Notes under the pieces: model-generated
What the model saw: the letters and a program-made list of their open reading frames with translations, nothing else
What the model was told of the DNA's origin: nothing
Databases searched by the model: none
Source: Nitrosomonadales bacterium
GTDB lineage: Bacteria; Pseudomonadota; Gammaproteobacteria; Burkholderiales; Gallionellaceae
Length of the DNA: 64,000 nucleotides
Reading direction: 5' to 3'
NCBI GenBank assembly: GCA_016177795.1
Contig: JACOUM010000008.1
Span: forward strand, 1 to 64,000
Translations under genes and position numbers: made by a program
Part shown: piece by piece, positions 5,580 to 21,694 of the stretch
How the letters are laid out: each line of letters begins with the position of its first letter
Numbering within the stretch: the stretch's first letter is position 1

Positions 5580-7016
5580 TCAGGAGGTAGCCTGCTGCAA
5601 GGCAACCACCTCAGCCGAATTGCCCGAGCCTTCGCGGCTCTTCCGCTCAACGGATGGATGCGCCGCCAGAATAGCGTTCGCCACCGCATGGCCACGGACA
5701 AGACGGTCGCGCACCGACACACCGCCACGGTAGTTTGCTTCGAGATGCAGGCCGTGGATTTGTCTCAGGCGCGCCGCAATTGCCTGCATCCGCAGCTGAT
5801 AGGCGCCATGGTATACCGGCAGGGCTTCCAGATGCCGGTCGATGCGCACCATCTCCGGATCGGCTTTCAGATTTACCAGCGGGCGCAATGTTCTGAGAGT
5901 CTCGTCCACGAGCCTGTTATCGTCCCAGTCCGCCACTTGGGGAGCGCGCACCCCACCGAGGTACGACGTGAGCAGAACCTTTCCCGGGGGCGCCCGGTCC
6001 GGGAACAAGGTGCTCATCCACAGGTTGCCTGTCAAGACTGCGCTGGCTCCCCTCGGCGCCAGAAATCCGGTGCCATCCAGCGGGTGACCCACCGCGTCGC
6101 GTGCCATGCCAGCGTGCACAACATTCACCGCAGCATAGCCGATTCCACGCAACAGCTCGGCCAGTTCATTATCCACGCGGTCAATCAGCGCAGCAGCGAC
6201 AGAAGCTGGCGTTGTCACGATCACTTGGCGCGCGGACAAAGTCTGCTGGCCATGCGGTGTCGTTGCCGTCACCCGCCAACCATCACGCTCGCGAACCAAT
6301 TCATCCACCGAGTAGCCGGTGCGCACATTGATTCCGGGTGTTCTGGCCAGATTCTCCACCAGCGCGCCCATGCCGCCATGGAAGGAAAAAGTATCGGTAG
6401 TGCAGGCCGTGCGGCGGCGCAATACCCGGTTAACCAGAACCCCGGCAGCCAGGCTGCCGTAACGCCGCTCCAATGCTGTAAGGCGCGGCAGTGCGGCGGC
6501 GGCACAGGTCTGGTCCGGATCTGCTGCCAGCGTCCCGGCAACAAATGGCTCGATGGCTTTTTCCAATACTTCACGGCCAAGCCGGCGGGTAATGAATTCG
6601 CTCACCGACTCGTCAGCCCGCCCACTGGAGAAAATGAAGGGTTCTGCCAGCAGCCGTAACTTGCCGCGCATGCTCCATAACGGTGAAGTCATCATGGCGC
6701 CCATGCGCATCGGCAGCGCCCTCAGGCAGTTTTGATGCAACAGATACCGACGCGCCTCTGCCGCAGGCAGACGGCCGGTCTTTGCCGATTCCAGTCCGGC
6801 CTCGCGCACCATTTCCACAACCTCTGGACGGAAATTCAGCACCATGGAGGCGGCGCGTTCGGTCAGGTATCCATCCTGCCGGTTGCTCATGATCTTGCCG
6901 CCCGTCCGCTTGTCTGCTTCCCAGACTTCAACGGACATACCGCTTCGCGCCAACCACCAGGCAGAAGCCAACCCCGTGATACCACCACCGACAATCAGTA
7001 CGTCGAGCTTATCCAT
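5580..7016 (-). CDS. Protoporphyrinogen oxidase-like FAD protein (HemY/PgoX type)
   Basis: A 478-residue flavoprotein. The N-terminal dinucleotide-binding motif is GGGITGLASAWWL (about 10-22). The central GTLAADPDQ segment followed by an Ala-rich stretch and LPRL is typical of oxygen-dependent protoporphyrinogen/coproporphyrinogen oxidases. The C-terminal FAD contact is GVSVRDRLVRGHAVA. The expected reaction is six-electron oxidation of a porphyrinogen to a porphyrin in haem synthesis. It starts 4 nt after the radical SAM/PCP_red gene and belongs to that operon, so it may serve a dedicated tetrapyrrole route, or simply be the cell's HemY. Other FAD amine-oxidase-like functions cannot be excluded. 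Confidence 0.8.
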   Translation of the reverse strand: MDKLDVLIVGGGITGLASAWWLARSGMSVEVWEADKRTGGKIMSNRQDGYLTERAASMVLNFRPEVVEMVREAGLESAKTGRLPAAEARRYLLHQNCLRALPMRMGAMMTSPLWSMRGKLRLLAEPFIFSSGRADESVSEFITRRLGREVLEKAIEPFVAGTLAADPDQTCAAAALPRLTALERRYGSLAAGVLVNRVLRRRTACTTDTFSFHGGMGALVENLARTPGINVRTGYSVDELVRERDGWRVTATTPHGQQTLSARQVIVTTPASVAAALIDRVDNELAELLRGIGYAAVNVVHAGMARDAVGHPLDGTGFLAPRGASAVLTGNLWMSTLFPDRAPPGKVLLTSYLGGVRAPQVADWDDNRLVDETLRTLRPLVNLKADPEMVRIDRHLEALPVYHGAYQLRMQAIAARLRQIHGLHLEANYRGGVSVRDRLVRGHAVANAILAAHPSVERKSREGSGNSAEVVALQQATS

Positions 7017-7020
7017 CTTG

Positions 7021-9108
7021 TCATACCGCCGGTTTTTCTTCTGTTTGATCCTGCTTGTTGGCCTTGAGTTGCGCCTTCATTTTCTCGAGCAAATCATGCC
7101 CCAGCAAATCGCCTGGATTTTCCCTCGTCGCAACGAAATTGCGGATGGTGTCAAAACGCTTGTCCGCCTCCGGATTGTCCTTGAGTCGCGGCACGCGTTC
7201 ACGGGCAATCTCATAGGCATCGAAGCTCAATTCCTGCATGCCGAAACCCTTCATGCGCTGCACCGCGCGCATCATGGCCACGTTGCGGAAACGCGTCAGG
7301 TCGCCGGAAGTGATGCGTTTAAGCCCTTCCTTGCGCGCATTGAATTCGGCGGCCTTCTTGATGCCTGCCCGGTTGAAGTCCGGTGCAGACAACACGCGCG
7401 CCAACGCATCTTCATCCCATTCCACTCCGCCGGTCAGCTGGGCAATGGCCTCCTCGGCATCGCGCCGCTCCACCGTTATGGCGCGCCGCTTCCTGGCAAA
7501 ATGTTCTGCGGCATTTTCCAGTGCCGGCGCCACGAACATGAGCGCCTGGGGTGTCTTGTCAGCGAGAAACTCCGTAAGTATGCAGTCTGATTCTTCAGTC
7601 CATGGCAAGCTGCGGCCGGGTTGTGATTCTGATTCCAGCCGGTCCAGCAGCTTGATGTTTACTTCCAGCCTGCCTTCGGAGCGGGCGACATCCTCGGCAA
7701 CCGCGCGCACACCCTCGCGCAGAAATGCCGGCATGGATGCCAGACGTTCCTGCGCCTGTTCGCTCCATGGCAGCGTGCCGACGGACGGCTGCGCGACTTG
7801 TTGAATTTCTTCCTGCGCCCCCTTGGGCTGGCTGTCAGGCCGGGGCGGACCACCGCTTCCGAAACGTTTCGCGGACAAGGTAGCCAAGTGCTCTTCGGTC
7901 ACCACGTGCATACCCAGTTCATGCACATAGCTTTCGGCGCGACTCTTGACCATCTTGCGCAGGAAGGAGGGAACCCGCGACAAACGCTTCTCTGCCTCCT
8001 TGTTCCAGATGAGTTTCTTTGGCTGCTCAATCAACGGCTCTATGACCGCAGACCCATCGGGTATATGGACGCACCATGGATCCGTGTCCATCAGGCTGTC
8101 ACCCATGGCGAGGGGCCGTGCCCGGCAACCGCCACATAGCTTCTGGAATTCACAGCTGCCGCATTTTCCCTGCAGCCCGGGATGACGCAAGGACTGGAAA
8201 ACCGGCGATTGATCCCAGATGTCCCAGAACTTCGTGTCGCGAATGCTGCCTTCCTCATCAGGAATGTAGGGACAGGCCGTGACGCCGCCTTCCGGCGTAA
8301 TGCGGCAATAATGGATACCTGCCAGGCAACCGCCGCCTTCATACCCGGCGGCGCGGGTGAGCGTGGATTGCGGGTTGCGTTGATAGGCGATGCGCTTGTA
8401 ATGGGGTGCGCAGCGTGCGCGAATGAGCAAGTCCTGGCTTTGCTCCTGCGCTTCCACCAACTGCTCAAGCACCCGCTCGTAGGTGGCCGGACTGATGTCC
8501 GACATGGATTCGCCGCGACCGGTGCAGATCAGGAAAAACACGTTCAGCACGCGCGCGCCCGAAGCGCGTGCAAAGTCGATCATGGCAGGTATTTCGTCGG
8601 CGTTGGATTCGGTGACGGAGAAATGTATCTGGAAAGACAGGTCGTGACGCTTGCAGGCCTCGATGCCATTCAGGGTTTTCTCCCACGCGCCGGGAAGCCC
8701 GCGAAAGACATCATGCTTTTGCGGATCCAGGGAATCGACACTGATACCTGCACCCATTGCTCCTGCAGCCTTCAGCGATTGCACGCGTTTATCGGTGAGT
8801 GCAACACCGTTTGTTCCCACCACCATGGAAAGACCGAGTCCGGTACCATGAGCCAGCAGTTCTTCCAGGTCGGGGCGCATCAGCGGCTCGCCACCGGTCA
8901 GCACCACCATGGTCTCGGTGCTGCGGCCTGCGATCTCCTCCAGCAGGCCGCGCACCTCTTGCGTGGCAAGCTCGCCTTCGCCACCCTGCTTCAGGGTTTC
9001 CGCATCCATGTAACAATGCGCGCAGGCAAGATTGCAGCGTTTGGTCAGGTTGATGGCAAGCAGGAACAAGCCATTGGTATCGGGGTTAACTGTGTAAGGC
9101 GCTTGCAT
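7021..9108 (-). CDS. Radical SAM/SPASM protein with C-terminal PCP_red-like repeats
   Basis: A 695-residue protein. The N-terminal radical SAM domain has the 4Fe-4S triad C25-x3-C29-x2-C32 and GGEP near residue 72. A SPASM-type Cys cluster region (about 255-345) includes CxxCxxxxxC and GGCRARP motifs. This architecture matches the haem d1/alternative haem enzymes NirJ, AhbC and AhbD. The second half (about 368-690) is unlike those enzymes: it holds three or four helical repeats starting W-x-E/K-x-A and containing P-x-F-L/V-R, which resemble the PCP_red domain of light-independent protochlorophyllide reductase subunit B. It starts 10 nt after the universal-stress/PCP_red gene and is followed by a porphyrinogen oxidase. 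Inferred role: modification or handling of a tetrapyrrole. The substrate is unknown. Confidence 0.8.
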   Translation of the reverse strand: MQAPYTVNPDTNGLFLLAINLTKRCNLACAHCYMDAETLKQGGEGELATQEVRGLLEEIAGRSTETMVVLTGGEPLMRPDLEELLAHGTGLGLSMVVGTNGVALTDKRVQSLKAAGAMGAGISVDSLDPQKHDVFRGLPGAWEKTLNGIEACKRHDLSFQIHFSVTESNADEIPAMIDFARASGARVLNVFFLICTGRGESMSDISPATYERVLEQLVEAQEQSQDLLIRARCAPHYKRIAYQRNPQSTLTRAAGYEGGGCLAGIHYCRITPEGGVTACPYIPDEEGSIRDTKFWDIWDQSPVFQSLRHPGLQGKCGSCEFQKLCGGCRARPLAMGDSLMDTDPWCVHIPDGSAVIEPLIEQPKKLIWNKEAEKRLSRVPSFLRKMVKSRAESYVHELGMHVVTEEHLATLSAKRFGSGGPPRPDSQPKGAQEEIQQVAQPSVGTLPWSEQAQERLASMPAFLREGVRAVAEDVARSEGRLEVNIKLLDRLESESQPGRSLPWTEESDCILTEFLADKTPQALMFVAPALENAAEHFARKRRAITVERRDAEEAIAQLTGGVEWDEDALARVLSAPDFNRAGIKKAAEFNARKEGLKRITSGDLTRFRNVAMMRAVQRMKGFGMQELSFDAYEIARERVPRLKDNPEADKRFDTIRNFVATRENPGDLLGHDLLEKMKAQLKANKQDQTEEKPAV

Positions 9109-9118
9109 CGTTGTCCTG

Positions 9119-11302
9119 TTATAAGCCGCTGCGCGGGTCCTGCGGATCCAGGTGGAAATAACCCTTGGACTGCCATTGCTGTTTGACGGTATTTACCGTG
9201 GCGAGATCAATATGCTGCAGCTTGTTGTGCTGTGCCCATTTTTCCACTTCTTTTATCAGCATGCCGCGCACCATGTCCGGCGCACGGCTGAGGCTGTCGC
9301 GCGCATCCTTGTCCCAAAGCATGGTTTCGCCGGCATTGGCTGATCCGGATTTGAAGGTGTCCAGCACCTGCCTTACCAAATCCGCAGTGATTTCAGTCAG
9401 GCCATTTTTGGCGGCGATGGCCACTATGGCATTGCGGGTCATATCGCGGCTCATGCCTGCCGGCAATCCCTGCACCAGTTCCTGTGCCTCGCCGGTCCAC
9501 GGCAAGACCGCATCGGTCGTCGTTGCCTTGCTACCAAAGCCGAAGGGACAACCGCCGCGCGCTGGTTTGGGAGCCGGTTCAGCCTGCCCCTGCATGGTTT
9601 TTTCCATTGCGCCACGAGCCAGCTTGAGACCATTTTCCGCCACTTCCAGCGTGACTTCAGCGTGACTATTCTGCCGGGCATAATCCTCGATGGTCTTCTT
9701 GCAATTGTCACGCATGAAACCCTCTGGTACCCGCATCAGACGGGCCAGCGCAGCGGCTTGCCAGTGAAGTTCGGAAATTTGATGCTGAACAGCTTCAGTC
9801 CCTGACGCTTCCGCGTCAAGGAACGGTTTAATGTGCCCGGCTTCCACCGTGCCGCTTTTTTCCTGGCGGGCTTTTTTCTCGGCACGCATGCTGAGATTGC
9901 CGCGCACGGAAAGGTCTTCGATGGTGAGCAAAAGGGCGGTTGCCTCGCTGGACCAGCGCATCGCATCTTCTGCCGTGGGTTTATGTTTCAGCTCGCCGGC
10001 ATCATAGGCGGCGACGATTTCTCCCATGGCCTGCTCCGCATGGCTCGGCATGAGCTGGGCGGTGGCTTCTTCCACAATTCTCTGGGTAATGACGGTATGG
10101 CCGTGTTCCTGCGCATAACGCAGTATCGCCATGCGCGCCATGTTGCGGACAAACGAGGGCACCCGCTCCATCCTGGATTCGGCTTCATGGGTCCAGGATG
10201 TCGTGACCCCGGAGACAACGTCTATTTTCGGCTGATGTTCGCGCATGCTGAGCAAAATGGCGCAATCCACATTTTCCAGCAGTTGTTCGCTGTTGCCGCC
10301 GATATCGAGTTCGTCATCGGCATGAATTCCCAGCTTGCCGACAACCAGCAGCGATGGCCTGGTTTTCTTGACGTACTTCTCGATGGCGTCGTGGGGCTTG
10401 CCGGCCAGCAGCTCAGTTTCTATTTCGACATCAAAGTCCCGGGCAATGGAACGGGCGACAATCAAATGGCCCTCATAAATCTTGGCCAAGCCGGAATCAA
10501 TGATTTCTTCGTGCAGCTTTTCCTGGTCCTTGAACTTGAATACCTTGCCTGCCTCTTCCGACAGCACCCCGGCAATCCGGTTGAAGGCCACGTAATGATA
10601 ATAGGGGTCAAACGCGGCAATCACCTTGACGGCTACCTGCCACTGCTTGGCCAGCGCCAGCGCCGTGAGCAATCCTCCATAGGCCTTGGGTGAACCATCC
10701 ACTGCGACGACAATCGGGCCTTCCCTGACAGGATGGCCAGCTTCCTTGATGATAAGCGTGTCGATGGCTGAACGCCGTGCCACACGCTTGCTTACCGTGC
10801 CCAGCCGGCTTCCCTGAATGGCGCCCAGACCCATGGCGCCCATGACGAGCAAGTCGTAGGCGCCGGAATTGGCTTCCCTAACAAGCTCCCGGTAATTTTT
10901 ACCTTCCAGCGAGCAGCGCCTGAAGCTGATGCCGATCTGGTCGCATTGGGCTGCGGCCTGATCGAGATAAGAGTCGGTGATAATCGACAGGCCGCGGGTA
11001 ATCAGGTCGTCGTGCACATCCCGTTGGCGCTCCAGTTCATGCTCCTGCTTGAACTGTTCCGGCAAGCCTCCTTCCATCTGGCGGAAGCGCATGTCGTGCA
11101 GTTTGGCGGCATAGACGTGGGCGCCGGTAATCACCGGTTCCTCTGCCAGCGCCGCCAGTTCCGCTGCATTCTCCATGGCGGCATTCGCATGGTCGGAGGA
11201 ATCAAGCGCAACCAGAATGCGTCGATGCAAATGGGCGTCAAGTGATAAGTATGAATCTTCGGCAATGGCCAGAGAAGCCTGTGGTGGCGTCATGTGTTGC
11301 AC
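9119..11302 (-). CDS. Tandem universal stress protein (UspA) domains fused to PCP_red-like repeats
   Basis: A 727-residue protein. Two UspA-type domains occupy about 27-195 and 200-355, each ending with the nucleotide-binding GxxGxGxxxG-like segment or its remnant (for example MGAMGLGAIQGSRLG). The rest contains about five repeats of 45-50 residues that begin with W-x-x-E/A-A and include a P-x-x-(V/M)-R-x-M core and a charged helix, matching the PCP_red domain. It shares these repeats with the radical SAM protein encoded 10 nt downstream. PCP_red caps the substrate in protochlorophyllide reductase, so binding of a tetrapyrrole or of partner proteins is plausible. An upstream TATAAT-like hexamer (11346-11351, - strand) may belong to its promoter. 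Confidence 0.8.
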   Translation of the reverse strand: MQHMTPPQASLAIAEDSYLSLDAHLHRRILVALDSSDHANAAMENAAELAALAEEPVITGAHVYAAKLHDMRFRQMEGGLPEQFKQEHELERQRDVHDDLITRGLSIITDSYLDQAAAQCDQIGISFRRCSLEGKNYRELVREANSGAYDLLVMGAMGLGAIQGSRLGTVSKRVARRSAIDTLIIKEAGHPVREGPIVVAVDGSPKAYGGLLTALALAKQWQVAVKVIAAFDPYYHYVAFNRIAGVLSEEAGKVFKFKDQEKLHEEIIDSGLAKIYEGHLIVARSIARDFDVEIETELLAGKPHDAIEKYVKKTRPSLLVVGKLGIHADDELDIGGNSEQLLENVDCAILLSMREHQPKIDVVSGVTTSWTHEAESRMERVPSFVRNMARMAILRYAQEHGHTVITQRIVEEATAQLMPSHAEQAMGEIVAAYDAGELKHKPTAEDAMRWSSEATALLLTIEDLSVRGNLSMRAEKKARQEKSGTVEAGHIKPFLDAEASGTEAVQHQISELHWQAAALARLMRVPEGFMRDNCKKTIEDYARQNSHAEVTLEVAENGLKLARGAMEKTMQGQAEPAPKPARGGCPFGFGSKATTTDAVLPWTGEAQELVQGLPAGMSRDMTRNAIVAIAAKNGLTEITADLVRQVLDTFKSGSANAGETMLWDKDARDSLSRAPDMVRGMLIKEVEKWAQHNKLQHIDLATVNTVKQQWQSKGYFHLDPQDPRSGL

Positions 11303-11540: not shown

Positions 11541-12503
11541 TTATTTGACAGCCTTTAGCTGGACTTGCTCAGGTGCGGCCCTGTTGCCGCCCGCAACAAA
11601 TCCACCGCCGACCAACTCGCTGCCCGGAGCGCGCCCGGTCATTTCCGATTCAATCAGCTCCTGCGCTTCCTGGAAGTCTGCACTTTTCGCCGCATTAAGC
11701 GCAGTTACATCGCCCTTGATCGGCTTGAAGGTTGACTTCGGGTTCAGGTACTCGGTTACGCTCTTCGGTGGCTGAACATCCTGCATTGCCCGGATAAAAG
11801 CGACAATGTCCCAGATATCCTGATCCTGCAGAACGTTACCCCAGTTGGGCATGGACGAAGACAGCGACACAGCCTCACCACCACCCTTGATTACGGTAAA
11901 CAATTCAAGGTTGGTTTTCTTCTGCATGTAGTCGCCACGGGTCAATGTCCTTGGGCGCGGATCCAGCTCGGAGGCACTGGGGCCGTCACCGTGCATCAAC
12001 CAGCCATGACAGGCAATGCAGTAAGAGTAGTAATAGGTTTTGCCATGATTTGGATCAGCGCCAGCCACCAGCGTCTCGCCGAACTTTGGAGACCAGTTGT
12101 TTGTCCACTGATCGTATACGCTCTTGTCTTTCACGCCATCGGAGGACGGGGCCTTCACGCGATCCCACAACTCAGTCTTGTAGCTGCCTTTGGTATCTGA
12201 ACCATAACCGCTATGCGTTTTGAAAGTCTTGGTATCGGAGTCAGCGCGCTTGCCCACGCCGGTCAGGTAATCGAACGGCGCGATGCCATAGGTGCTACCA
12301 CCCTGGCCCTCTTCCATATCAGCGCCTTCTTTCAAAAAAGCAGCAGACGCTGCTGCAGCTTCTGCTGCGCTTACAGTAGGACACTCAACCTTCTGTCCGC
12401 CGGCGGTGCAACGCTTCTCGGCAGCAAAAGCGGTTGCGCTCCCCCACATCATGCCCAAACTCGTCATTGCGATCAGGCCTATTTTCAACTTGGCATTCTT
12501 CAT
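11541..12503 (-). CDS. Periplasmic monohaem cytochrome c, partner of the NosZ-like protein
   Basis: A 320-residue exported protein with a Sec signal peptide ending ATAFA-A (about residue 28). One haem motif, CIACH (162-166), is followed by a cytochrome c fold with SMPNWG as likely Met ligand. N- and C-terminal extensions flank the haem domain. An RC...EC pair near 32/41 could form a disulfide. It begins 82 nt after the NosZ-like gene and shares its promoter, so it is the natural electron donor or acceptor for that copper protein. Several clade II nos clusters also carry cytochromes c. Confidence 0.85.
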   Translation of the reverse strand: MKNAKLKIGLIAMTSLGMMWGSATAFAAEKRCTAGGQKVECPTVSAAEAAAASAAFLKEGADMEEGQGGSTYGIAPFDYLTGVGKRADSDTKTFKTHSGYGSDTKGSYKTELWDRVKAPSSDGVKDKSVYDQWTNNWSPKFGETLVAGADPNHGKTYYYSYCIACHGWLMHGDGPSASELDPRPRTLTRGDYMQKKTNLELFTVIKGGGEAVSLSSSMPNWGNVLQDQDIWDIVAFIRAMQDVQPPKSVTEYLNPKSTFKPIKGDVTALNAAKSADFQEAQELIESEMTGRAPGSELVGGGFVAGGNRAAPEQVQLKAVK

Positions 12504-12585: not shown

Positions 12586-14343
12586 TTACAGACCCTTCAC
12601 ACGTTCAGCTATCGTCAGAGCACCACCTTCGAGCAAGCCCGGCAGTGTTTGCGCCTTGTCATATTCACCCACAGCCAGATTGGATGGCCCTTTCTTGGGA
12701 TCGTCAACAAAGAATGCAGCTCTCATTTCCAAGTGCAGAGGTCCGCAGAAGTGCGTGCAGAAGATTTCATATTCGCCTGCAATATCCGCTGTGAACTCGT
12801 GCACGGAAGTTACTCCGCGTGGAAGATCCATATTGGACCTCTGGCCGTACGGACCGTAGATCGTCAAGCCCATTGTGACGTCTGGGTTCTTCGTGATACC
12901 GGACGCCTTGTCGATATTGGTACCGAACAAACGCACCTTGTCGCCCTTGTTCACGCGCACCTGACGAGGAATATAGCCGTAGCTGAAGGCCTTCATGTGA
13001 ACCTCCTTGACGCCGTCAACTGTCTTGACGCCTGGAGCGGTGGTTTCCTTGGGAATAAACCACCTTCTCGAGTGTGCCCTGTGAGGAGGATCAAGCAGTT
13101 CGGTCATGCCAGTGATCAAACCGCCTTGCTCTGCCTGGCCCTTGGTCCAATCCTTGATCAGATAAGCCATCAAGCCCTTGGCGTTATGCGGTTCGCCGTC
13201 CACCGGCATGATCCTCAAGGTCTTGCCGTAGGTCGGGCTCTTTTCACGCGCATCCCACATCTCGAAGTTAACTGGGAAAACAATACCCGTCGGGCTGAAC
13301 AGACCGGTAGAGAACTTGTTCAATGACATCACGTAGGAGTTATCCGGGCTGATGGAAATATGACCAGTTCTGTAGTGAGTCGGGATTTCGTCAACCACTT
13401 CAAGCTTGGCGTAGGACACCTTGACGTTCGCGTCGGCCACGAAGCAGCTCTCGTAGACGTACTTGGAAGTCAGGCCATCCGGGCTATCAATGCCAGCACG
13501 GTAGGAGCCGCCATCCTTGTTATATACGTCCATTACCGAATGCAGAGGACCGGCGCAGGTCGGAATGACTTTCTTGACTGCCAGCTTCTCCATATCGATA
13601 ACCGTCATAGTTGCCGAAAGCTTGTCGCTCACGACCGCCATAGTGCTTTCCGGATTGATGTCGGTACCATGCGGGTTCTTGCCCACCGGAATTTCCTTGA
13701 TCAGCTTGAAAGGGCTGGTGGAAAATACACCCACGGTAGAGTGGTAGTAGTTGCCCGCTATAACGTATTTACCATTCCGGGTCGCATCGATGTAATCTGG
13801 AGCGCTCGGAGACGGACCCCAGTCGATCACCTCGGTCTTGCCCGACTTGATGTCAATCTTGGCCATCTTGCCACTATACTCACCCGTGGCAAACAGATTT
13901 TTGCCATCAGTGCTCATCGCAATATGGTGCACCCCGAACGGGAACGGCAGCGCGATGATCCTGTTCAAATAACCTGTCTGAAGATCGAATTCGCAGACCG
14001 TGTTGGCGCCCTTGTCGTTCAGATAAACGTATTTGCCATCCGGCGTACCGTTCTTGTTACCCTTGTTGCTTCCGCCGAAAGAAATTTCGTGTGTATCAAC
14101 ACCGCAATCGATGTGACGGTAAGTCTTGAAACTCGGGATACCGATAACCGCCATCTTGCCGTCCACACCGCCGGACGAGTACAGAATCATCGGATCAATG
14201 GTCGGCGTATCCTTGCCATCCGGAACCGCCATCTGCCATCCAGGGATGGCCAAAGAAGGGTCCTTCGCAGCATGAGCCGCACCCGCCATCAAGCAACTCA
14301 TCGATAGAGCGCTCACCATAAGAAACTTATATTTGTCTTGCAT
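12586..14343 (-). CDS. Divergent NosZ-family copper protein, Sec-exported
   Basis: A 585-residue protein with a Sec-type signal peptide (about 1-25; no twin arginine), a beta-propeller and a C-terminal cupredoxin domain, the layout of nitrous-oxide reductase. Six of the seven CuZ-type histidines appear kept: H85, H139 or H140, H225 (NPHG), H268 (GPLH), H328 (TGH) and H386 (EPH). The usual paired HH near the N-terminus is reduced to TH. In the cupredoxin the CuA loop has C529-x3-C533-x3-H537-x2-M540, but the earlier His ligand (DVSHGF in known NosZ) reads DVTMGL, Met at 491, and the Trp inside the loop is His. No nosR, nosD, nosF, nosY or nosL is in the window. It may be a diverged N2O reductase or a NosZ relative with another substrate. 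Confidence 0.8.
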   Translation of the reverse strand: MQDKYKFLMVSALSMSCLMAGAAHAAKDPSLAIPGWQMAVPDGKDTPTIDPMILYSSGGVDGKMAVIGIPSFKTYRHIDCGVDTHEISFGGSNKGNKNGTPDGKYVYLNDKGANTVCEFDLQTGYLNRIIALPFPFGVHHIAMSTDGKNLFATGEYSGKMAKIDIKSGKTEVIDWGPSPSAPDYIDATRNGKYVIAGNYYHSTVGVFSTSPFKLIKEIPVGKNPHGTDINPESTMAVVSDKLSATMTVIDMEKLAVKKVIPTCAGPLHSVMDVYNKDGGSYRAGIDSPDGLTSKYVYESCFVADANVKVSYAKLEVVDEIPTHYRTGHISISPDNSYVMSLNKFSTGLFSPTGIVFPVNFEMWDAREKSPTYGKTLRIMPVDGEPHNAKGLMAYLIKDWTKGQAEQGGLITGMTELLDPPHRAHSRRWFIPKETTAPGVKTVDGVKEVHMKAFSYGYIPRQVRVNKGDKVRLFGTNIDKASGITKNPDVTMGLTIYGPYGQRSNMDLPRGVTSVHEFTADIAGEYEIFCTHFCGPLHLEMRAAFFVDDPKKGPSNLAVGEYDKAQTLPGLLEGGALTIAERVKGL

Positions 14344-15090: not shown

Positions 15091-16635
15091 TCAGTATTTG
15101 TTGCCAGCGGCGGTAGCCTGGCCGGCGCTGCGCGCCCACCAGAGCAAGCCACCCAGGAACAACAGCGCAATCACCAACGCCGTAACAAGCGGCCTGGAAC
15201 CGGTTGCCGGCTTCAGCAACATCCAGTACCAAGTAGTCATGGTGTGCTTCGAGCCCTTCTCGCTGAAGTTGCTGCCATCCCAGGCAGCGAATGCAACAGG
15301 AATAAACTTGCCCTCGACGAACTGGATATCCTTGTCTGCTGCCGACGTGGTAAGCGGCCTGGTCATCACCACTTTCCAGGTTCCATTGTCATAGCTTGCC
15401 TTGGACATGAGCCCGACATCTGCAGCATTGCGCTTCTCGATTTCCTTGAAGCCTTTGCTGCTAAGAAGACTGGTGGTTTCCGGCGCGCCGGCCGAACCGC
15501 TCTTCCAGTGCCAGATATTCACCGGATTTGCCGCATCACCCATGCCGAAATAAGGCTTCTGCATTTCCCTCGGGATCACGACGGGCAACTGTACCGCGAC
15601 ACCGTCTTCCGCGATAGGCGCATCGGCCAGTTTCTCCGCATCGCCATCCCCGGGAATGCTCTTGGTGCGGTCATCCCACTCCAGCAGCATCGCCACGTTC
15701 TTGTCGTTGTACATGGCACGCACGGTGATGGTGTCATTGGACGGCCTGAAGAAGCGCTCCTCACCGATAATCTGCGGAACCAGGATAAAGGTGGTAGGCG
15801 TAGAGGCTTCCCAGCGCTCATCATCCGGGGTAGCGGGCAATTCGCCCTCCACCATGTCCGCCTTGACAACGGTATTTTCCGCATTAACCGCCTTGTCGGT
15901 CTTGGCCAGGGACGCCACATAGTTGGCCACATGCCAGCGCTCCTCGACCGAAAGTTTCTTTTTGCTGCTCGGATCGGCGAAGGACGGCATCTCGGTGCCT
16001 GGAATGCCGGTGGAAATACGCGTAAAAATGTCTTTCGGGTCGTTGCTGCCGCGGAACGTCCATGGCTTGGTCAGGTTACGCGGCCAGGTACGCTCGCCGG
16101 CATCGCCCTTGAGCCGCTTGATCGCACTGCCTTTGCCGGTCTTGCCGTGACATTCCACACAACGATCCCCATCCTCGAACAACTGCTTGCCCTTTTCGAT
16201 GCTTTCGGCCGAACTCGCGATCTGGGTGCCGTAATCAACCGCCTTGGCAGGCGGTTTGTCGAAACCGGCAAAGGATTTGACATAAGCCACCAGGTCCCAC
16301 ATGTCCTGCTCGGAAAGCAATTCTTTCCAGCTTGGCATCGCGGTTCCGGGCATGCCGTCGCGAATCATGCGAAAGACGTCATCGTCGCTCGGCGTCATTT
16401 CATCAAAACTTGAGGTTTTGATTTTGTAGTTGCCGGAGGTAAAGTCCCGCGGCGGCGGGTTGAGCCGGTCCATGGCCGCCCCATCACCAGCCCCCTCATC
16501 CCCGTGACACCAGGTACAACGCTTGTTGTAAATCTCCTTACCCTTGTCAGCGGTACCCGGCTTAGCCATTGCCGGCCCCGCCATGAATAATGCCGCACAG
16601 AGTGTCAGGACTGTCAGTTTAGTTTTATGAGTCAT
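15091..16635 (-). CDS. Dihaem cytochrome c fused to an ethylbenzene-dehydrogenase-type haem domain, membrane anchored
   Basis: A 514-residue protein from ATG 16635, chosen because AGGAA lies 7 nt upstream and a Sec signal (cleavage after AMA) follows at once. Two cytochrome c domains come first, with CTWCH (40-44) and CVECH (159-163), each followed by a MP(S/A)(W/F) ligand segment. Residues about 265-470 resemble the EB_dh b-haem-binding domain found in gamma subunits of DMSO-reductase-family enzymes such as ethylbenzene dehydrogenase and nitrite oxidoreductase. A C-terminal transmembrane helix (about 485-503) anchors it. No molybdopterin alpha or beta subunit is nearby. It may wire periplasmic electrons to the bd-like oxidase. 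Confidence 0.8.
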   Translation of the reverse strand: MTHKTKLTVLTLCAALFMAGPAMAKPGTADKGKEIYNKRCTWCHGDEGAGDGAAMDRLNPPPRDFTSGNYKIKTSSFDEMTPSDDDVFRMIRDGMPGTAMPSWKELLSEQDMWDLVAYVKSFAGFDKPPAKAVDYGTQIASSAESIEKGKQLFEDGDRCVECHGKTGKGSAIKRLKGDAGERTWPRNLTKPWTFRGSNDPKDIFTRISTGIPGTEMPSFADPSSKKKLSVEERWHVANYVASLAKTDKAVNAENTVVKADMVEGELPATPDDERWEASTPTTFILVPQIIGEERFFRPSNDTITVRAMYNDKNVAMLLEWDDRTKSIPGDGDAEKLADAPIAEDGVAVQLPVVIPREMQKPYFGMGDAANPVNIWHWKSGSAGAPETTSLLSSKGFKEIEKRNAADVGLMSKASYDNGTWKVVMTRPLTTSAADKDIQFVEGKFIPVAFAAWDGSNFSEKGSKHTMTTWYWMLLKPATGSRPLVTALVIALLFLGGLLWWARSAGQATAAGNKY

Positions 16636-16654
16636 CGTTATTCCTAAGCGTCGA

Positions 16655-17440
16655 TTATTCATTTGCCCACGACCTTGGCCGTCTGCCGGTATAGTCATAC
16701 AAGAACAGAATCACCTTCCATATCTCGTCTTCGGTCAGGAAATTCTGCCAGACGGGCATGGACGAAATCCACGGAGCGGCTTCAGCAGGCAGCCCCGGGC
16801 CGCCGGTGGAAATACGCCAGAACAGGAAGGACTCCTGCAGTTGCGCGATGGTGCCCACGTCCTGGAAGTTGAGCGGGGTAGGGTTCAGGCCCGAAGCATA
16901 TGGCCCCTTGCCATCCAGCCTGTCGCCATGGCAGTACTGGCAATTCTGGATATAGACATTGCCGCCCTCCTTGACCAGTTCCTTGAACTTCACCGGATCT
17001 TCCTTCTCGAACTTGCGATACGGATTCTCCAAGGTGGTCAGGTTGAAGCTCTTGCCATACGCCTTGAACTTGTTGGGCGGTGCCGGGTGGATGGTACGCA
17101 ATTCCACCGGCGCCTCGAAACTGGGCAGCATGCTCGAATAGGTGTAGTAGCCCGCCAGCAAGGGCACGATGACAAATACCACATTGCGCACCATTTTCCT
17201 GGACGGATCTTCAACCAGCGCCTTGATCGGGCCTGCCAGTTCCTGCGCGCCCTGTTCGGTGAAGGTAAACACCATCACCACACCGGCTATCACGAAGACC
17301 ATATACATGGTCAGCAGGCTCTTGGGAATCAACTGGCCCAGCAGCACGTCGAACACCAGGATAAAGGTGAAATAGACTGCAACGACAACCAGCGCCATCT
17401 GCAACAGGCGTGGGATAAGTCTTTTCTTTGTCATATTCAT
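16655..17440 (-). CDS. Membrane cytochrome c with N-terminal helices
   Basis: A 261-residue protein with three N-terminal hydrophobic helices (about 12-35, 40-60, 83-100), then a periplasmic cytochrome c domain with CQYCH near residue 167 and SSMPVW as probable Met ligand. It overlaps the upstream gene by one base (TAATG), indicating coupled translation. It is likely an integral subunit of the same complex as the dihaem cytochrome and the bd-like oxidase. Confidence 0.8.
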   Translation of the reverse strand: MNMTKKRLIPRLLQMALVVVAVYFTFILVFDVLLGQLIPKSLLTMYMVFVIAGVVMVFTFTEQGAQELAGPIKALVEDPSRKMVRNVVFVIVPLLAGYYTYSSMLPSFEAPVELRTIHPAPPNKFKAYGKSFNLTTLENPYRKFEKEDPVKFKELVKEGGNVYIQNCQYCHGDRLDGKGPYASGLNPTPLNFQDVGTIAQLQESFLFWRISTGGPGLPAEAAPWISSMPVWQNFLTEDEIWKVILFLYDYTGRRPRSWANE

Positions 17441-18249
17441 TATTTCAACCCCGCCATGTAGTTCACCAGCATTTCAAGCTCCTTCGCTTTCATTTGCTCA
17501 CCGAATGTCGGAGGCATCATGCCGCCTGTAAATCCCTGGGCGATGACCGCTTCAGGATCGAGAATCGCCTGCCGCAAATAGTCTTTGCTTTTTGACTTAC
17601 CAACCTTGGTAAGATCAGGCCCCAACGCGCCGACCTGGTCAGCCACTTTATGACACATACCGCAACCATATTTGACAATAACTTCCTCGGGCGTTTTCAG
17701 CGCAGCTTCCTCAACAGGAGCTGCACCCTCGGCCGGAGCGGCATCCATCTGCGGAATCTCGACCGTCACTTCACTGCCACTCGAATCCTGAAGATAGGCG
17801 ATTACCGCCGCAAGCTCAGCCTCGTTCAACCCGATACCGCCGCCAGAAACGTCAGGCATCGGACTCTCGGTGTCGTTGCTGCCGGATTTGCCAAAACCGG
17901 CCACCACATAGGCCGAGGGTTTCACCAGCGACTCGTGAATATACTCCTGAACCGTCTTGGCTTCGCCCTTGTAACGAGCATCCTTCATGCGCTCTTCGGC
18001 ATTGGCGCCCACCTTGTCCAGCATCGGCGCCCGGCCCATTGCGTTGTGGCACAGGGTACAAGTGCCCTTGCCGTTAAAAATCTTGCCGCCCAGCGCGATG
18101 AATTGATCCATGGTCATCGCGCCGAGATCCAGCTTTTCCTCCACCGGCGGCGGTGCCGGCTTGATCTGCGGGATGCCGAAGTTGGAAAAGCCCCAGAACC
18201 CACTGATTACCAGCAGGCTGAAAAAGGCTGTTTTAAAAAAATTCTTCAT
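17440..18249 (-). CDS. Dihaem cytochrome c
   Basis: A 269-residue protein with an N-terminal hydrophobic anchor (about 8-24) and two cytochrome c domains, CTLCH near 64-68 and CGMCH near 195-199, joined by a Pro/Ala/Glu-rich linker. A GGMMPPTFG segment near the C-terminus would supply the second haem's Met. The start overlaps the stop of the bd-like oxidase gene by four bases (ATGA), so the products are probably made in equal amounts and work together. Confidence 0.85.
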   Translation of the reverse strand: MKNFFKTAFFSLLVISGFWGFSNFGIPQIKPAPPPVEEKLDLGAMTMDQFIALGGKIFNGKGTCTLCHNAMGRAPMLDKVGANAEERMKDARYKGEAKTVQEYIHESLVKPSAYVVAGFGKSGSNDTESPMPDVSGGGIGLNEAELAAVIAYLQDSSGSEVTVEIPQMDAAPAEGAAPVEEAALKTPEEVIVKYGCGMCHKVADQVGALGPDLTKVGKSKSKDYLRQAILDPEAVIAQGFTGGMMPPTFGEQMKAKELEMLVNYMAGLK

Positions 18250-20114
18250 GCCTGCTCCTTCCAGTATCCCTTGGCAACAACATGTTTGCCGCTAATCGTG
18301 CTCAGCCAGAAGACGAAGATGACCATGGCCATGAATATGATCGTCCCGACTGACACCACGCTGGCCGCGTAGCCCAGACCAGGTGTAAAGGCATCGGGAG
18401 AGCCGTCACGGAAGATATTGGATACATGCCAGTGCTGGCGAATGCCGGAACGGACATAACCCATCAGGCCCATCAGCCAGGTAAAGGATACCGCCAGCAG
18501 GAACAGTGCATATTGCGAGCGTGCCGGCATGCGTCCCCAGTGCAACGGCGCCACATCTTTCGCACCCTTGTACATGAATGCATCGATGACCAGGCTGGTG
18601 ATAATAATGGTCAACGTGGTCAGCACCTGCGGTATCGAGGCCGCCACCTTGTACACCGTGTTGGTGAAGTAACCATAATAGACACCCAGTATCACGATAT
18701 TGATCAGTCCCACGGTAAACAGCGCAATCTGCGCCGCATTACCCGCTGCCGCCCACGATACGGTAGCAACCTTGTTGGCACGCCGGTAAAACACAAAGCT
18801 CAGGAATGTGAAGGTAAGCAAGAAGTTCACGGCCGTGTTCTTAGCCGGCATGATGCCAAACACGCCCAGGATCTGGTGATAGGGCCCGCCCAAGTCCTTG
18901 AGCTCGGAATTGGTGAGCACCAAGGTATGCGGCGTAAACCACACCAGGAAGGCCAGCACCAAGACAGCGGCGATGTATTTGATCCTGGGGTTGTAACGAT
19001 ACGCGCCGTCGCTGCGACCCATGCCGCACCACAGATAATAGTTGGCCGACAGGAACAGGGCGCCGATCAACACTGCCTGGATAATAAATATCCAGGCGAA
19101 CACACCACCCATCAGGGTGATACCCATCTGCTGGCTGTAGGCATACATTTCTGCGGTAAGGTAATAACCGGCGAAAGGCAGCGGCAGCAGCGCGGAAATG
19201 GCGATGAAGTTGGCGTTATAGCCTACCCAGTCATAATGGGCACGCTCTTCCTTCTTCTGCGCACTAAGAAACTTGAATGCGGCATAGGCGCCGACAACCG
19301 AACCGCCATACGCCACGTTGGCGACCACCCGGTGAATGTTGATCGGGTTCCACAGGAAGTTGTGAATTGCCTCCCAAGTGTTGCCATTGAACACGCCCGC
19401 CGCATCCACAGCCGCCGGGCTCATCATGAAGGTCGTCCATGCATTGGCCAGGAACATCAGCTGCAAACCCACCGCGTTAAGCAACAAACCGAAGGTCAGG
19501 TGAATCCATTTCTTGTTGCCGCCCTGCAGCCAGTGCCAGCCGTAATAATAGATATACAGGACCGCGCTTTCGGCGAAGAACAGCAGCGCGTAGGCAAACA
19601 TGCTCTCCTTGAAGATCATGGCCAGATACTTGAACAAGTCGGGATAGAACAGGATCAGGCCGAAAGACAACAAACCGCCCAGAATCGCGGTCAGCGAATA
19701 GGCAGTGATACTGACCTTGATGAATTCATAGGCCATGTTGTCATAGCGCTCATCCCGGGTCACCATGCCGATCACCTCGATGATGAACACGAACATCGGC
19801 ACCGCGACCACAAAGGCTCCGAACCAGAGGTGCAGCTGGGCCACCAGCCACACCATCACCCTGGCATTTACGCCCGGGATGGTGGGGTAGTCCGCCTCAG
19901 TCAGCTTAGGCGCTGGCGGAAAGGTTATCGCATTTGCGACGGGCTCTGCAGCTGCGTCCGATGCGGCGGCTGACGCCGGTGCGGCGGCCGATGTTGCTTC
20001 GGCCGCCGCCGCCTCGGAAGCATGCACTGCAGGCATGAAATCGGGCAGCATGAACATGGCCAGTATGACCAGCATCAATGCCCCGAAGGTTATTTTCATA
20101 TTCCGTGTTAGCAA
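18246..20114 (-). CDS. Cytochrome bd-like oxidase subunit (CydA-related, extended)
   Basis: A 622-residue polytopic membrane protein, longer than CydA. TTG 20114 is the likely start because CAGGAG lies 6 nt before it; ATG 20099 lacks such a site. A signal-like helix and an Ala-rich linker precede the core. CydA-like features are H95 in a helix matching the b595 ligand helix, E182 preceding a YYGW segment as CydA E107 precedes FFGW, H261 matching the b558 His, and a Met at 330 or 335 matching the b558 Met. The CydA Glu99 equivalent and the long Q-loop are missing. No cydB is present. Similar bd-like proteins are known in nitrite-oxidising Nitrospira. With five cytochrome c genes alongside it, it may take electrons from cytochrome c rather than quinol. 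Confidence 0.8.
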   Translation of the reverse strand: MLTRNMKITFGALMLVILAMFMLPDFMPAVHASEAAAAEATSAAAPASAAASDAAAEPVANAITFPPAPKLTEADYPTIPGVNARVMVWLVAQLHLWFGAFVVAVPMFVFIIEVIGMVTRDERYDNMAYEFIKVSITAYSLTAILGGLLSFGLILFYPDLFKYLAMIFKESMFAYALLFFAESAVLYIYYYGWHWLQGGNKKWIHLTFGLLLNAVGLQLMFLANAWTTFMMSPAAVDAAGVFNGNTWEAIHNFLWNPINIHRVVANVAYGGSVVGAYAAFKFLSAQKKEERAHYDWVGYNANFIAISALLPLPFAGYYLTAEMYAYSQQMGITLMGGVFAWIFIIQAVLIGALFLSANYYLWCGMGRSDGAYRYNPRIKYIAAVLVLAFLVWFTPHTLVLTNSELKDLGGPYHQILGVFGIMPAKNTAVNFLLTFTFLSFVFYRRANKVATVSWAAAGNAAQIALFTVGLINIVILGVYYGYFTNTVYKVAASIPQVLTTLTIIITSLVIDAFMYKGAKDVAPLHWGRMPARSQYALFLLAVSFTWLMGLMGYVRSGIRQHWHVSNIFRDGSPDAFTPGLGYAASVVSVGTIIFMAMVIFVFWLSTISGKHVVAKGYWKEQA

Positions 20115-20188
20115 GATCTACTCCTGTTTATGCACGCGTGTGCGTTACCTTAAGAGGAAACACCCTTAAGCATGGTGATGACAAATTC

Positions 20189-20305
20189 TTAATGACCATA
20201 TACCAGCGTCAACCCCTGAAGCTTCATCATGGAGAAATCCAGGGCAAAAAATACCAGGCAAAACACTATAAATGCACCGATGAACGGTAAAAAATAAGCT
20301 TTCAT
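20189..20305 (-). CDS. One-helix membrane microprotein (38 residues)
   Basis: ATG 20305 is preceded by GAGGG at 9-10 nt spacing, and the frame ends with TAA at 20189-20191. The product is one long hydrophobic helix (about 4-24) and a short polar tail. It lies 75 nt upstream of the bd-like oxidase gene, in the position and size range of CydX/CydH/CcoQ-type small subunits. No sequence family is recognised. Confidence 0.6.
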   Translation of the reverse strand: MKAYFLPFIGAFIVFCLVFFALDFSMMKLQGLTLVYGH

Positions 20306-20309
20306 GTCG

Positions 20310-20435
20310 TTACGCCCTCAAGAACCATACAAAGAAAACGGTTACTGCGGCCAGCGTCAGGCTAAAAATGGCCGGCCCCAGCCACGGAAACTTCGATGTT
20401 CCGCATTCTTCTGTTTCACAATTATCAGCACTCAT
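20310..20435 (-). CDS. One-helix membrane microprotein (41 residues)
   Basis: ATG 20435 follows a strong GGGAGGG ribosome-binding site, and the stop TAA is at 20310-20312, 4 nt before the next microprotein. The product has an acidic, Cys-containing N-terminus (CETEEC) and one hydrophobic helix (about 18-38) ending in Arg. A CydX-like or complex-stabilising role is inferred from context. Confidence 0.6.
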   Translation of the reverse strand: MSADNCETEECGTSKFPWLGPAIFSLTLAAVTVFFVWFLRA

Positions 20436-20486
20436 ACCAACCCTCCCTCAGCGGTTTATTTGCCCGTTACGGCATACTCTCTCGCA

Positions 20487-20511
20487 AAAAGGGGGAAAAT
20501 CACCCCCTTTT
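20487..20511 (-). terminator. GC-rich hairpin with T run inside the oxidase operon
   Basis: On the - strand the sequence reads AAAAGGGGG, a 7-nt loop, CCCCCTTTTT. It sits between the 34- and 41-residue microprotein genes, so it would act as a partial terminator or as an mRNA processing/stability boundary between the two leading cytochromes and the oxidase genes. Confidence 0.5.
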
Positions 20512-20530
20512 CGAGTTCTGCCTTGCTCAA

Positions 20531-20635
20531 CTATATGACGTAGAAATACAGGATCAGGCAAATGAAGACGACATTCACCAGCAGTCCGGAAAAAATAACG
20601 CCGTCAGCAAGATATTTTTTGCTCAGCAAGCTCAT
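20531..20635 (-). CDS. One-helix membrane microprotein (34 residues)
   Basis: ATG 20635 is preceded by AAGG at about 8 nt, and the stop TAG is at 20531-20533. The product has a short basic N-terminus and one hydrophobic helix (about 13-34). It lies 10 nt downstream of the 121-residue cytochrome c gene. No family recognised. Confidence 0.5.
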   Translation of the reverse strand: MSLLSKKYLADGVIFSGLLVNVVFICLILYFYVI

Positions 20636-20645
20636 TCAGATCGCC

Positions 20646-21011
20646 TTACTTGGCGGTGCACTTGCAAAGCTTGCGGATATGCGCCAGCAACCCGTCCACT
20701 TCCGCATCGGACAAGGTAGCACCCCATGGCGGCATCAATGGGGACTTGCTGATAGCCGGCCCGCCATCCTTGATAACGGTTCTGATGTCGTCATCGGAAC
20801 GCTTTTCCATGTCCGCGGTAACGGTGAAGTTACGCGGGTCCGTGGAAAAACTCTTGGTGACATTGATGCCCTTGCCATCGCCCTTTTCACCATGACACTG
20901 CGCACAATAAAAATCGAATACCTGCTTGGCGTCGTCCGCCGCCTGCGCTGAACCAGCAGCGCTCAGAGCCAAACCAAGCGCCATGGTAATCATTATTACA
21001 AATCTCGACAT
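20646..21011 (-). CDS. Small periplasmic monohaem cytochrome c
   Basis: A 121-residue class I cytochrome c with a Sec signal peptide (cleavage near AQA, residue 24), haem motif CAQCH near 36-40 and a MPPWG Met-ligand segment near residue 93. About 97 residues mature, a typical soluble electron shuttle. Second gene of the operon and the most likely mobile donor to the membrane cytochromes downstream. Confidence 0.85.
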   Translation of the reverse strand: MSRFVIMITMALGLALSAAGSAQAADDAKQVFDFYCAQCHGEKGDGKGINVTKSFSTDPRNFTVTADMEKRSDDDIRTVIKDGGPAISKSPLMPPWGATLSDAEVDGLLAHIRKLCKCTAK

Positions 21012-21040
21012 GAGTCTATCCCTCCGTTAATTCGCTTCTA

Positions 21041-21694
21041 TCACTCAAAAGTGGCAATGTATGCCGCCAAGCCTTCCATATCCTTCGGGCTCATTGCCTT
21101 GGAAAAGTCTGGCATATCCCGAACCGGCTTGAAGGACTTGACGTCTGTCAAGTAAGCATAAACCCAGTCAGGATTCAGCCTCTTGCCCGCGCCGACCAGA
21201 GAGGGTCCACTCAGCCCGCCCGACACATCGCCCTTCGACTCGGTCTGATGACATCCGCTGCAAGGCATTTTTTTGGCGAAGATGTTGCGCGCCTGCGGAG
21301 TGCTTTTTGCCTTAATCTTGCCCGCCGCAACTTTGGCAGAAGTCAGGCCCATCAGGTAATCGGTGAGCGCAGCAGCGTCGCCTGCTGACGATTTGGGATG
21401 GTCACCCGCGTTCTTTTCGGTGAGGGAGTTGTATTTCATCGGACGAATCGGCTTGGGATCCTGCAACCATGCCGCCAGCCAGCCCTTCTGAAACTTGCTG
21501 CCAGCATAGAACAGCTCTGGACCCTTCTTTGCCAACTGGTCTGCAATGGTCTTTTCCTTGGCCGGACCATCGGTGTAATGACAGCTGGCGCAGTTCTTCT
21601 TGAAAATTGCGTCCCCGCCACCTGCATAACTGGGCGCTGTCATCGTGACCAGCAAAGCCGCTCCTAGGGAAACGGTAACTGCTAGCAGTTTCAT
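21041..21694 (-). CDS. Periplasmic dihaem cytochrome c
   Basis: A 217-residue protein with a Sec signal peptide (cleavage near SYA-G), haem motifs CASCH near 35-39 and CSGCH near 144-148, and MPDF as a likely C-terminal Met ligand. A good AAGGAA ribosome-binding site precedes ATG 21694. First gene of the bd-like oxidase operon, about 273 nt downstream of the predicted transcription start of an FNR-type promoter. Confidence 0.85.
   Translation of the reverse strand: MKLLAVTVSLGAALLVTMTAPSYAGGGDAIFKKNCASCHYTDGPAKEKTIADQLAKKGPELFYAGSKFQKGWLAAWLQDPKPIRPMKYNSLTEKNAGDHPKSSAGDAAALTDYLMGLTSAKVAAGKIKAKSTPQARNIFAKKMPCSGCHQTESKGDVSGGLSGPSLVGAGKRLNPDWVYAYLTDVKSFKPVRDMPDFSKAMSPKDMEGLAAYIATFE

Follow-up and report, generated by a model that had tools for sequence, protein, structure and literature searches.

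The reading frame at 12,586–14,343 of the window (the whole 64,000-nucleotide stretch of DNA analysed here) encodes a protein that, by its match to a curated model, is a member of the third nitrous oxide reductase family, already named clade III or L-NosZ. It probably acts as an exported periplasmic N2O reductase which is fed by the adjacent c-type cytochrome and lacks the histidine gate at the CuA site. The preliminary description had presented an aberrant NosZ-like protein whose CuA residues were altered and whose CuZ histidines were fewer than usual. Alignment confirms these residues, but the set belongs instead to the named family, represented by the NCBIfam model NF052460. The interest of the protein lies in an apparent split between methionine and histidine at CuA, a CuZ glutamate taken as family-wide, the cytochrome linked to its gene, and genomes in which searches found neither NosD nor NosL.

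Family assignment and predicted structure

The frame begins with ATG and is open over its full length (Table 1). The model NF052460, 'clade III lactonase-type nitrous-oxide reductase', is matched with 745.6 bits against a cut-off of 700 and is covered from position 1 to 480 of 480; the clade II and clade I NosZ models (TIGR04246, 164.7 bits; TIGR04244, 99.9 bits) both remain under their cut-off of 625. Among Pfam models, YNCE (59 bits) and Lactonase (36.5 bits) exceed their cut-offs, the nos propeller repeat reaches 29.5 bits against a cut-off of 30, and cupredoxin is sub-threshold. The C-terminal CuA domain speaks against a plain lactonase or YncE identity, as does the match to NF052460 over its whole length, and this identity was rejected. 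Among solved structures, the best matches in sequence are N2O reductases (pairwise alignments with PDB entries, best E 3.1e-17). He et al. (2025, Nature 646:152-160) reportedly described L-NosZ, with N2O reduction, as a third NosZ family. The N-terminal stretch suggests that the protein would be exported to the periplasm by Sec.

The full-length structure predicted from 15 sequences has a mean pLDDT of 48.3, and no ligand geometry was taken from it. This model matches N2OR chains with Z 25.4–26.0 at an rmsd of about 15, and plain propellers with Z 24–27 at an rmsd of about 3; since the Z scores of the N2OR chains are level with those of plain propellers, it speaks more for the propeller than for the arrangement as a whole. 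The CuA-domain fragment, predicted from 13 of the 15 sequences (L008 and L011, where the motif was missed, were left out), reaches a pLDDT of 69.5, and no cupredoxin or CuA protein is found among the 50 listed of its 1709 Foldseek matches.

Table 1. Coordinates of L-nosZ, its sites and its neighbours in the window
Feature	Position	Strand	Basis
L-NosZ, clade III lactonase-type N2O reductase, 585 aa	12586..14343	-	ORF; NF052460, 745.6 bits
Signal peptide-like stretch, residues 1-25, no twin arginine	14269..14343	-	Sec-type by inspection of sequence
T84-H85-E86, place of the paired CuZ His (His129-His130 of P. stutzeri)	14086..14094	-	Profile-profile alignment; H85 and E86 in 17/17 rows
H139 (place of His178) and extra invariant H140	13924..13929	-	Profile-profile alignment, 17 rows, NF052460
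M491, place of CuA His583	12871..12873	-	PDB, multiple and profile-profile alignments; single-change scoring; 17-row comparison
CuA loop C529-x3-C533-x3-H537-x2-M540	12724..12759	-	Sequence; multiple alignment, 17/17 rows
c-type cytochrome, one CxxCH, 320 aa, likely electron donor	11541..12503	-	Pfam cytochrome c; synteny
USP domains with four PCP_red repeats	9119..11302	-	Pfam; conserved synteny
Radical SAM/SPASM protein (NirJ2/AhbD-like, under cut-offs) with PCP_red repeats	7021..9108	-	Profiles; synteny
HemG-like protoporphyrinogen oxidase	5580..7016	-	TIGR00562, 237.9 bits (cut-off 97.85); synteny
Cytochrome c / EB_dh protein, neighbouring respiratory module	15091..16698	-	Pfam; synteny
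Two c-type cytochromes (16655-17440, 17440-18249), CydA-like module	16655..18249	-	Pfam; synteny
CydA-like (bd-type) membrane protein, same respiratory module	18246..20114	-	Pfam PF01654, 54.3 bits
c-type cytochrome, CydA-like module	21041..21694	-	Pfam; synteny

Conservation and the CuA site

Residues were compared across 17 L-NosZ rows, comprising the window protein, 14 further contig loci and two rows (L046, L047) identical with genomes G186 and G412, and across 30 of 32 collected canonical NosZ rows, L065 and L071 having been dropped because the wrong frame had been picked. The other 16 L-NosZ members are 67.9–93.0% identical to the window protein. Invariant in all 17 are the CuA loop ligands, Met491, six CuZ histidines, Glu86, His140, Phe532, Glu384 and Lys343, and six comparisons, with dS partly saturated, give dN/dS of 0.07–0.12, a sign of purifying selection. 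Identity in 17/17 rows under such selection means that the residue set is not a product of chance or error.

The CuA loop is kept, as had been described, with the sequence C529-T-H531-F-C533-G-P-L-H537-L-E-M540. In pairwise PDB, multiple and profile–profile alignments, the place of the canonical CuA histidine, His583 of P. stutzeri, is taken by Met491, which bears out the exchange reported earlier; the structures in the pairwise alignments include H583 variants. Replacing Met491 with His raises the score against the clade II model by 5.2 bits and against the clade I model by 4.9 bits. All 30 canonical rows have the CuA histidine, where the window protein has Met491. The stretch that follows Met491 is longer than in canonical NosZ in the multiple alignment. 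The histidine in place of the loop tryptophan, also pointed out in the preliminary description, is correct but a weak sign, because canonical NosZ vary there as well (W in 20, E in 7, N in 2 and Q in 1 of the 30 rows); His531 is partly favoured in NF052460, by 1.6–1.7 bits over Glu or Trp.

PMC11573801 describes how His583 of P. stutzeri NosZ swings between copper and Ser550, a movement proposed to gate electron and proton transfer. Both gate residues are changed in the window protein, His583 to Met491 and Ser550 to Ala452. We discarded the loss of Ser550 as a special sign of L-NosZ: serine is absent from 7/30 canonical rows too, and Ala452 is the less conserved in NF052460, where it differs from Ser by 1.1 bits against 1.9 bits in a model built from the 17 rows.

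Methionine and histidine at column 491

NF052460, used as a model and not through its seed alignment, served as a stand-in for clade III from other phyla, and protein fragments with a single residue changed were scored against it. With His at column 491 the score is 174.0 bits, with Met 173.1, and with the other 18 residues 170.2–171.8; only His and Met are clearly enriched, and the window protein carries one of the two. In the 17-row model, Met exceeds Ala by 3.9 bits when the column is all Met, and His exceeds it by 4.3 bits when the column is all His. The values observed for NF052460 are 2.7 bits for His and 1.8 for Met, and the closest mixtures hold 10 to 12 His of 17, a rough proportion since one random choice of rows was made per mixture. 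Because mixtures of His and Met come closest to the observed values, both types appear to be represented in the curated family. Met491 is, on this scoring, the mark of a sub-type already inside the curated family, and we infer the His-type half from the model. No relative was found in the viral contigs scanned; 199 plasmid records all had less than 60% identity, and the annotated ones among the 40 listed were TAT- or Sec-dependent NosZ. Further samples within the phylum (the classes of G412, G186 and the window, and the order of G186) yielded no new L-NosZ members.

The CuZ site and its maturation genes

Six of the seven CuZ histidines are kept, in agreement with the count given before: H85, H139, H225, H268, H328 and H386. 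The N-terminal pair, which the preliminary description had found reduced to one without naming the residue, is His85-Glu86, glutamate taking the place of the second histidine. These assignments come from a profile–profile alignment of L-NosZ with canonical NosZ (probability 100, E 6.9e-41), in which His178, 326, 382, 433 and 494 of P. stutzeri pair with His139, 225, 268, 328 and 386; the N-terminal pair, misaligned in the multiple alignment, was read from the same source. The P. stutzeri numbers are those we take to be the CuZ histidines, and they agree with the titles of mutant structures among the structure matches. All seven histidines are present in 30/30 canonical rows, and the window protein lacks the full seven. 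An extra invariant histidine, His140, adjoins His139.

Substitutions at these positions are costly in the curated model. The loss relative to wild type is 4.6 bits for His85 to Ala; 3.0, 3.3, 2.1 and 2.4 bits for Glu86 to His, Ala, Asp and Gln; 4.6 bits for His139 to Ala and 5.3 for His140 to Gly; and, in the CuA loop, 5.2 bits for Cys529 to Ser, 4.7 for His537 to Ala and 2.8 for Met540 to Leu. Calibration was against the 17-row model, in which these columns are invariant, and every listed loss exceeds the drop seen there. His85, Glu86, His139, His140, Cys529, His537 and Met540 are for this reason taken as family-wide in L-NosZ; the window protein has all of them as in NF052460.

Glu86 could serve as the copper ligand in place of the histidine, with His140 as the alternative. 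In canonical NosZ, each of the seven CuZ histidines was replaced singly and metalation was abolished in six cases, according to PMC11573801, which disfavours the easy loss of one of them. In clade I and II NosZ, the features of CuA and CuZ are 100% conserved according to PMC11096178.

NosL was not found in the genome of the window, which is 73.84% complete, and neither NosL nor NosD was found in any of 13 L-NosZ genomes, 7 of them at least 90% complete. Among 14 control genomes NosL was matched in 2 and NosD in 4 (none over its cut-off). The absence of nos maturation genes noted earlier extends, for NosD and NosL, to all 13 genomes, and the joint presence of nosD and nosL in the genome that accompanies canonical NosZ was not found.

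The linked cytochrome and other neighbours

The cytochrome gene starts 82 bases past the L-nosZ stop codon on the same strand. A homologue follows L-nosZ directly in 14/14 further loci and in G412; in G186 it is encountered about 4 kb further along. At E<=1e-60 the cytochrome occurs in 11/150 genomes sampled from the family of the window, the same 11 that have L-NosZ. The linkage makes it the likely electron donor of L-NosZ.

The remaining flanks of L-nosZ form two modules, one with the CydA-like protein, the cytochromes and the EB_dh protein, and the other, on the opposite side, with the USP/PCP_red, radical SAM/PCP_red and HemG-like genes. The CydA-like protein occurs at E<=1e-60 in 19/150 family genomes: 9 belong to the group of 11 that have L-NosZ, and 10 do not (Fisher p 5e-8). 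An obligate partnership between the CydA-like module and L-NosZ was rejected, as the module was not found in G056 and G129 and is present in 10 genomes without L-NosZ; in L097 and L098, both modules stand side by side without L-NosZ. By their occurrence, the flanking modules and L-NosZ are associated but separable. CydA of the OR-N type is thought, in the account of PMC10839748, to take electrons from cytochrome c.

The flanks also hold unusual architectures. PCP_red (PF08369, protochlorophyllide reductase 57 kD subunit) is fused in four repeats to USP domains, and in three repeats to the radical SAM/SPASM protein beside the HemG-like gene. The CydA-like module with its four cytochrome c proteins (15,091–21,694) is conserved both with and without L-NosZ.

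Distribution

The window protein has one match in its own genome (1.65 Mb). Ten of the 14 further loci come from Gallionella, Gallionellales or Nitrosomonadales MAGs, and the other four from Casimicrobiaceae, Betaproteobacteria, Thiothrix and Moraniibacteriota. This last locus (L002), probably a binning error, is a 7.4 kb contig labelled Candidatus Moraniibacteriota that carries the same cassette at 93% identity. Ten of the 14 loci lie on the same contigs as the ten other L-NosZ genomes of the family search.

Only matches over the cut-off were counted as L-NosZ, because 7/14 control genomes match the search at E<=0.001 and 0/14 exceed the cut-off. By this count L-NosZ occurs in 11/150 genomes of the family (52/150 at E<=0.001), in 3/398 genomes of the phylum sample, own genome included, in 1/78 of the class of G412, in 1/48 of the class of G186 (its order being the same 48), and in 1/369 of the class of the window, this one being its own genome. 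With so few genomes over the cut-off in each sample, the gene can be called rare and its distribution patchy.

At least four genomes of the family sample (G001, G038, G065, G125) encode a NosZ of canonical type in which every CuZ and CuA ligand is present (L027, L028, L029, L031); none of these genomes is among the 11 with L-NosZ. A passage of the Gallionellaceae pangenome paper (PMC10734462) gives nosZ for none of its genomes. In literature from 2025 on, we found no paper joining clade III, nosZ and Gallionella.

Discussion

In the mechanism we propose, the beta-propeller of the exported protein would hold a CuZ-like copper–sulfur cluster bound by six histidines and, in place of the seventh, probably Glu86 or else the extra His140. 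The C-terminal cupredoxin domain would form a CuA-like site from Cys529, Cys533, His537, Met540 and Met491; if Met491 binds copper, the site would be a CuA with two methionines and one histidine. Electrons would pass from the adjacent cytochrome to CuA, and from there to CuZ through the kept Phe532/Glu384/Lys343 conduit, the counterpart of the Phe621/Glu492/Lys454 conduit described for canonical NosZ in PMC11573801. A methionine would be unable to gate by protonation, and with Met491 in place of the movable histidine the P. stutzeri-type gate is predicted to be absent. Of the two outcomes proposed in the preliminary description, a changed electron-entry site appears likely for the Met sub-type, while a different substrate is not favoured, as the residue set belongs to a family with reported N2O reduction. 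PMC13274427, a study with 96 clade III sequences, states that acetylene acts as an inhibitor of the N2O reduction carried out by clade III NosZ, and this clade is also treated in PMC12569097, PMC13122619 and PMC13033781.

A fuller version of this scheme is put forward tentatively, as we think it somewhat less probable than its negation. L-NosZ would come in two natural CuA types, of which the Met-type of Pseudomonadota, paired with its cytochrome, reduces N2O with a gate-less CuA (two Cys, two Met, one His) and a Glu-containing CuZ assembled without NosD and NosL, so that both the seventh histidine and the gate would be dispensable.

It is rather unlikely that the Met-type branch has instead lost or changed N2O reduction and acts on another substrate, for example in the chemistry of NO or O2 next to the bd-like module, with methionine setting another CuA potential. 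Such a change would fit the presence of Met in 17/17 Pseudomonadota members while the curated model favours His too, the frequent proximity of the CydA-like respiratory module, and the 13 L-NosZ genomes in which neither NosD nor NosL was found. Yet the CuZ-defining residues are identical in the Met-type rows and the curated model, and the CydA-like module is present in 10 genomes without L-NosZ and not found in 2/11 with it.

Still less probable is an ordinary CuA in which another residue, for instance from the inserted 'YGPYGQRSN', takes the place of His583 in space and leaves Met491 a bystander. The lengthened stretch after Met491 would allow for this, and the predicted structures (pLDDT 48.3 and 69.5) are too poor for ligand placement; but Met491 is invariant in 17/17 rows and aligned without gaps, the clade I and II models both score about 5 bits higher once it is exchanged for His, and the L-NosZ model favours His in the same column. 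A decaying or non-functional nosZ relic, which the patchy presence of the gene (11/150 family and 3/398 phylum genomes over the cut-off) might suggest, is scarcely credible in view of the low dN/dS, the full-length open frame, the invariant motif residues and the linked cytochrome.

The gate-less N2O reductase that we favour is of use as a natural experiment. It combines two natural variants, glutamate for one CuZ histidine, taken as family-wide, and methionine for the movable CuA histidine, apparently confined to a sub-type; these allow the need for the histidine gate and the seventh histidine to be tested, and raise the question of how CuZ forms without NosD and NosL. With L-NosZ in 11/150 genomes of its family, the gene may also represent an overlooked sink of the greenhouse gas N2O.

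Among known systems, the protein stands closest to the L-NosZ family of NF052460, with which it shares the whole-length match, the D-x-H-E motif, His139-His140 and the CuA loop, and from which it differs at column 491 by having Met instead of the His to which the model gives a slight preference. With clade I and II NosZ it has in common the propeller and CuA domain, six of seven CuZ histidines, the CuA loop and the Phe/Glu/Lys conduit; it differs from them by Glu86 for the seventh CuZ histidine and Met491 for the CuA histidine, and the L-NosZ genomes differ by having no NosD or NosL found in 13/13. YncE/lactonase-like beta-propellers share the propeller repeats and, to our knowledge, have neither a CuA domain nor the CuZ histidine set. 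The CuA domain of cytochrome c oxidase subunit II, which as far as we know comes without a propeller, weakly matches the C-terminal domain of L-NosZ (E ~2e-05) with its Cys-Cys-His-Met loop, and carries its first histidine where L-NosZ has methionine here.
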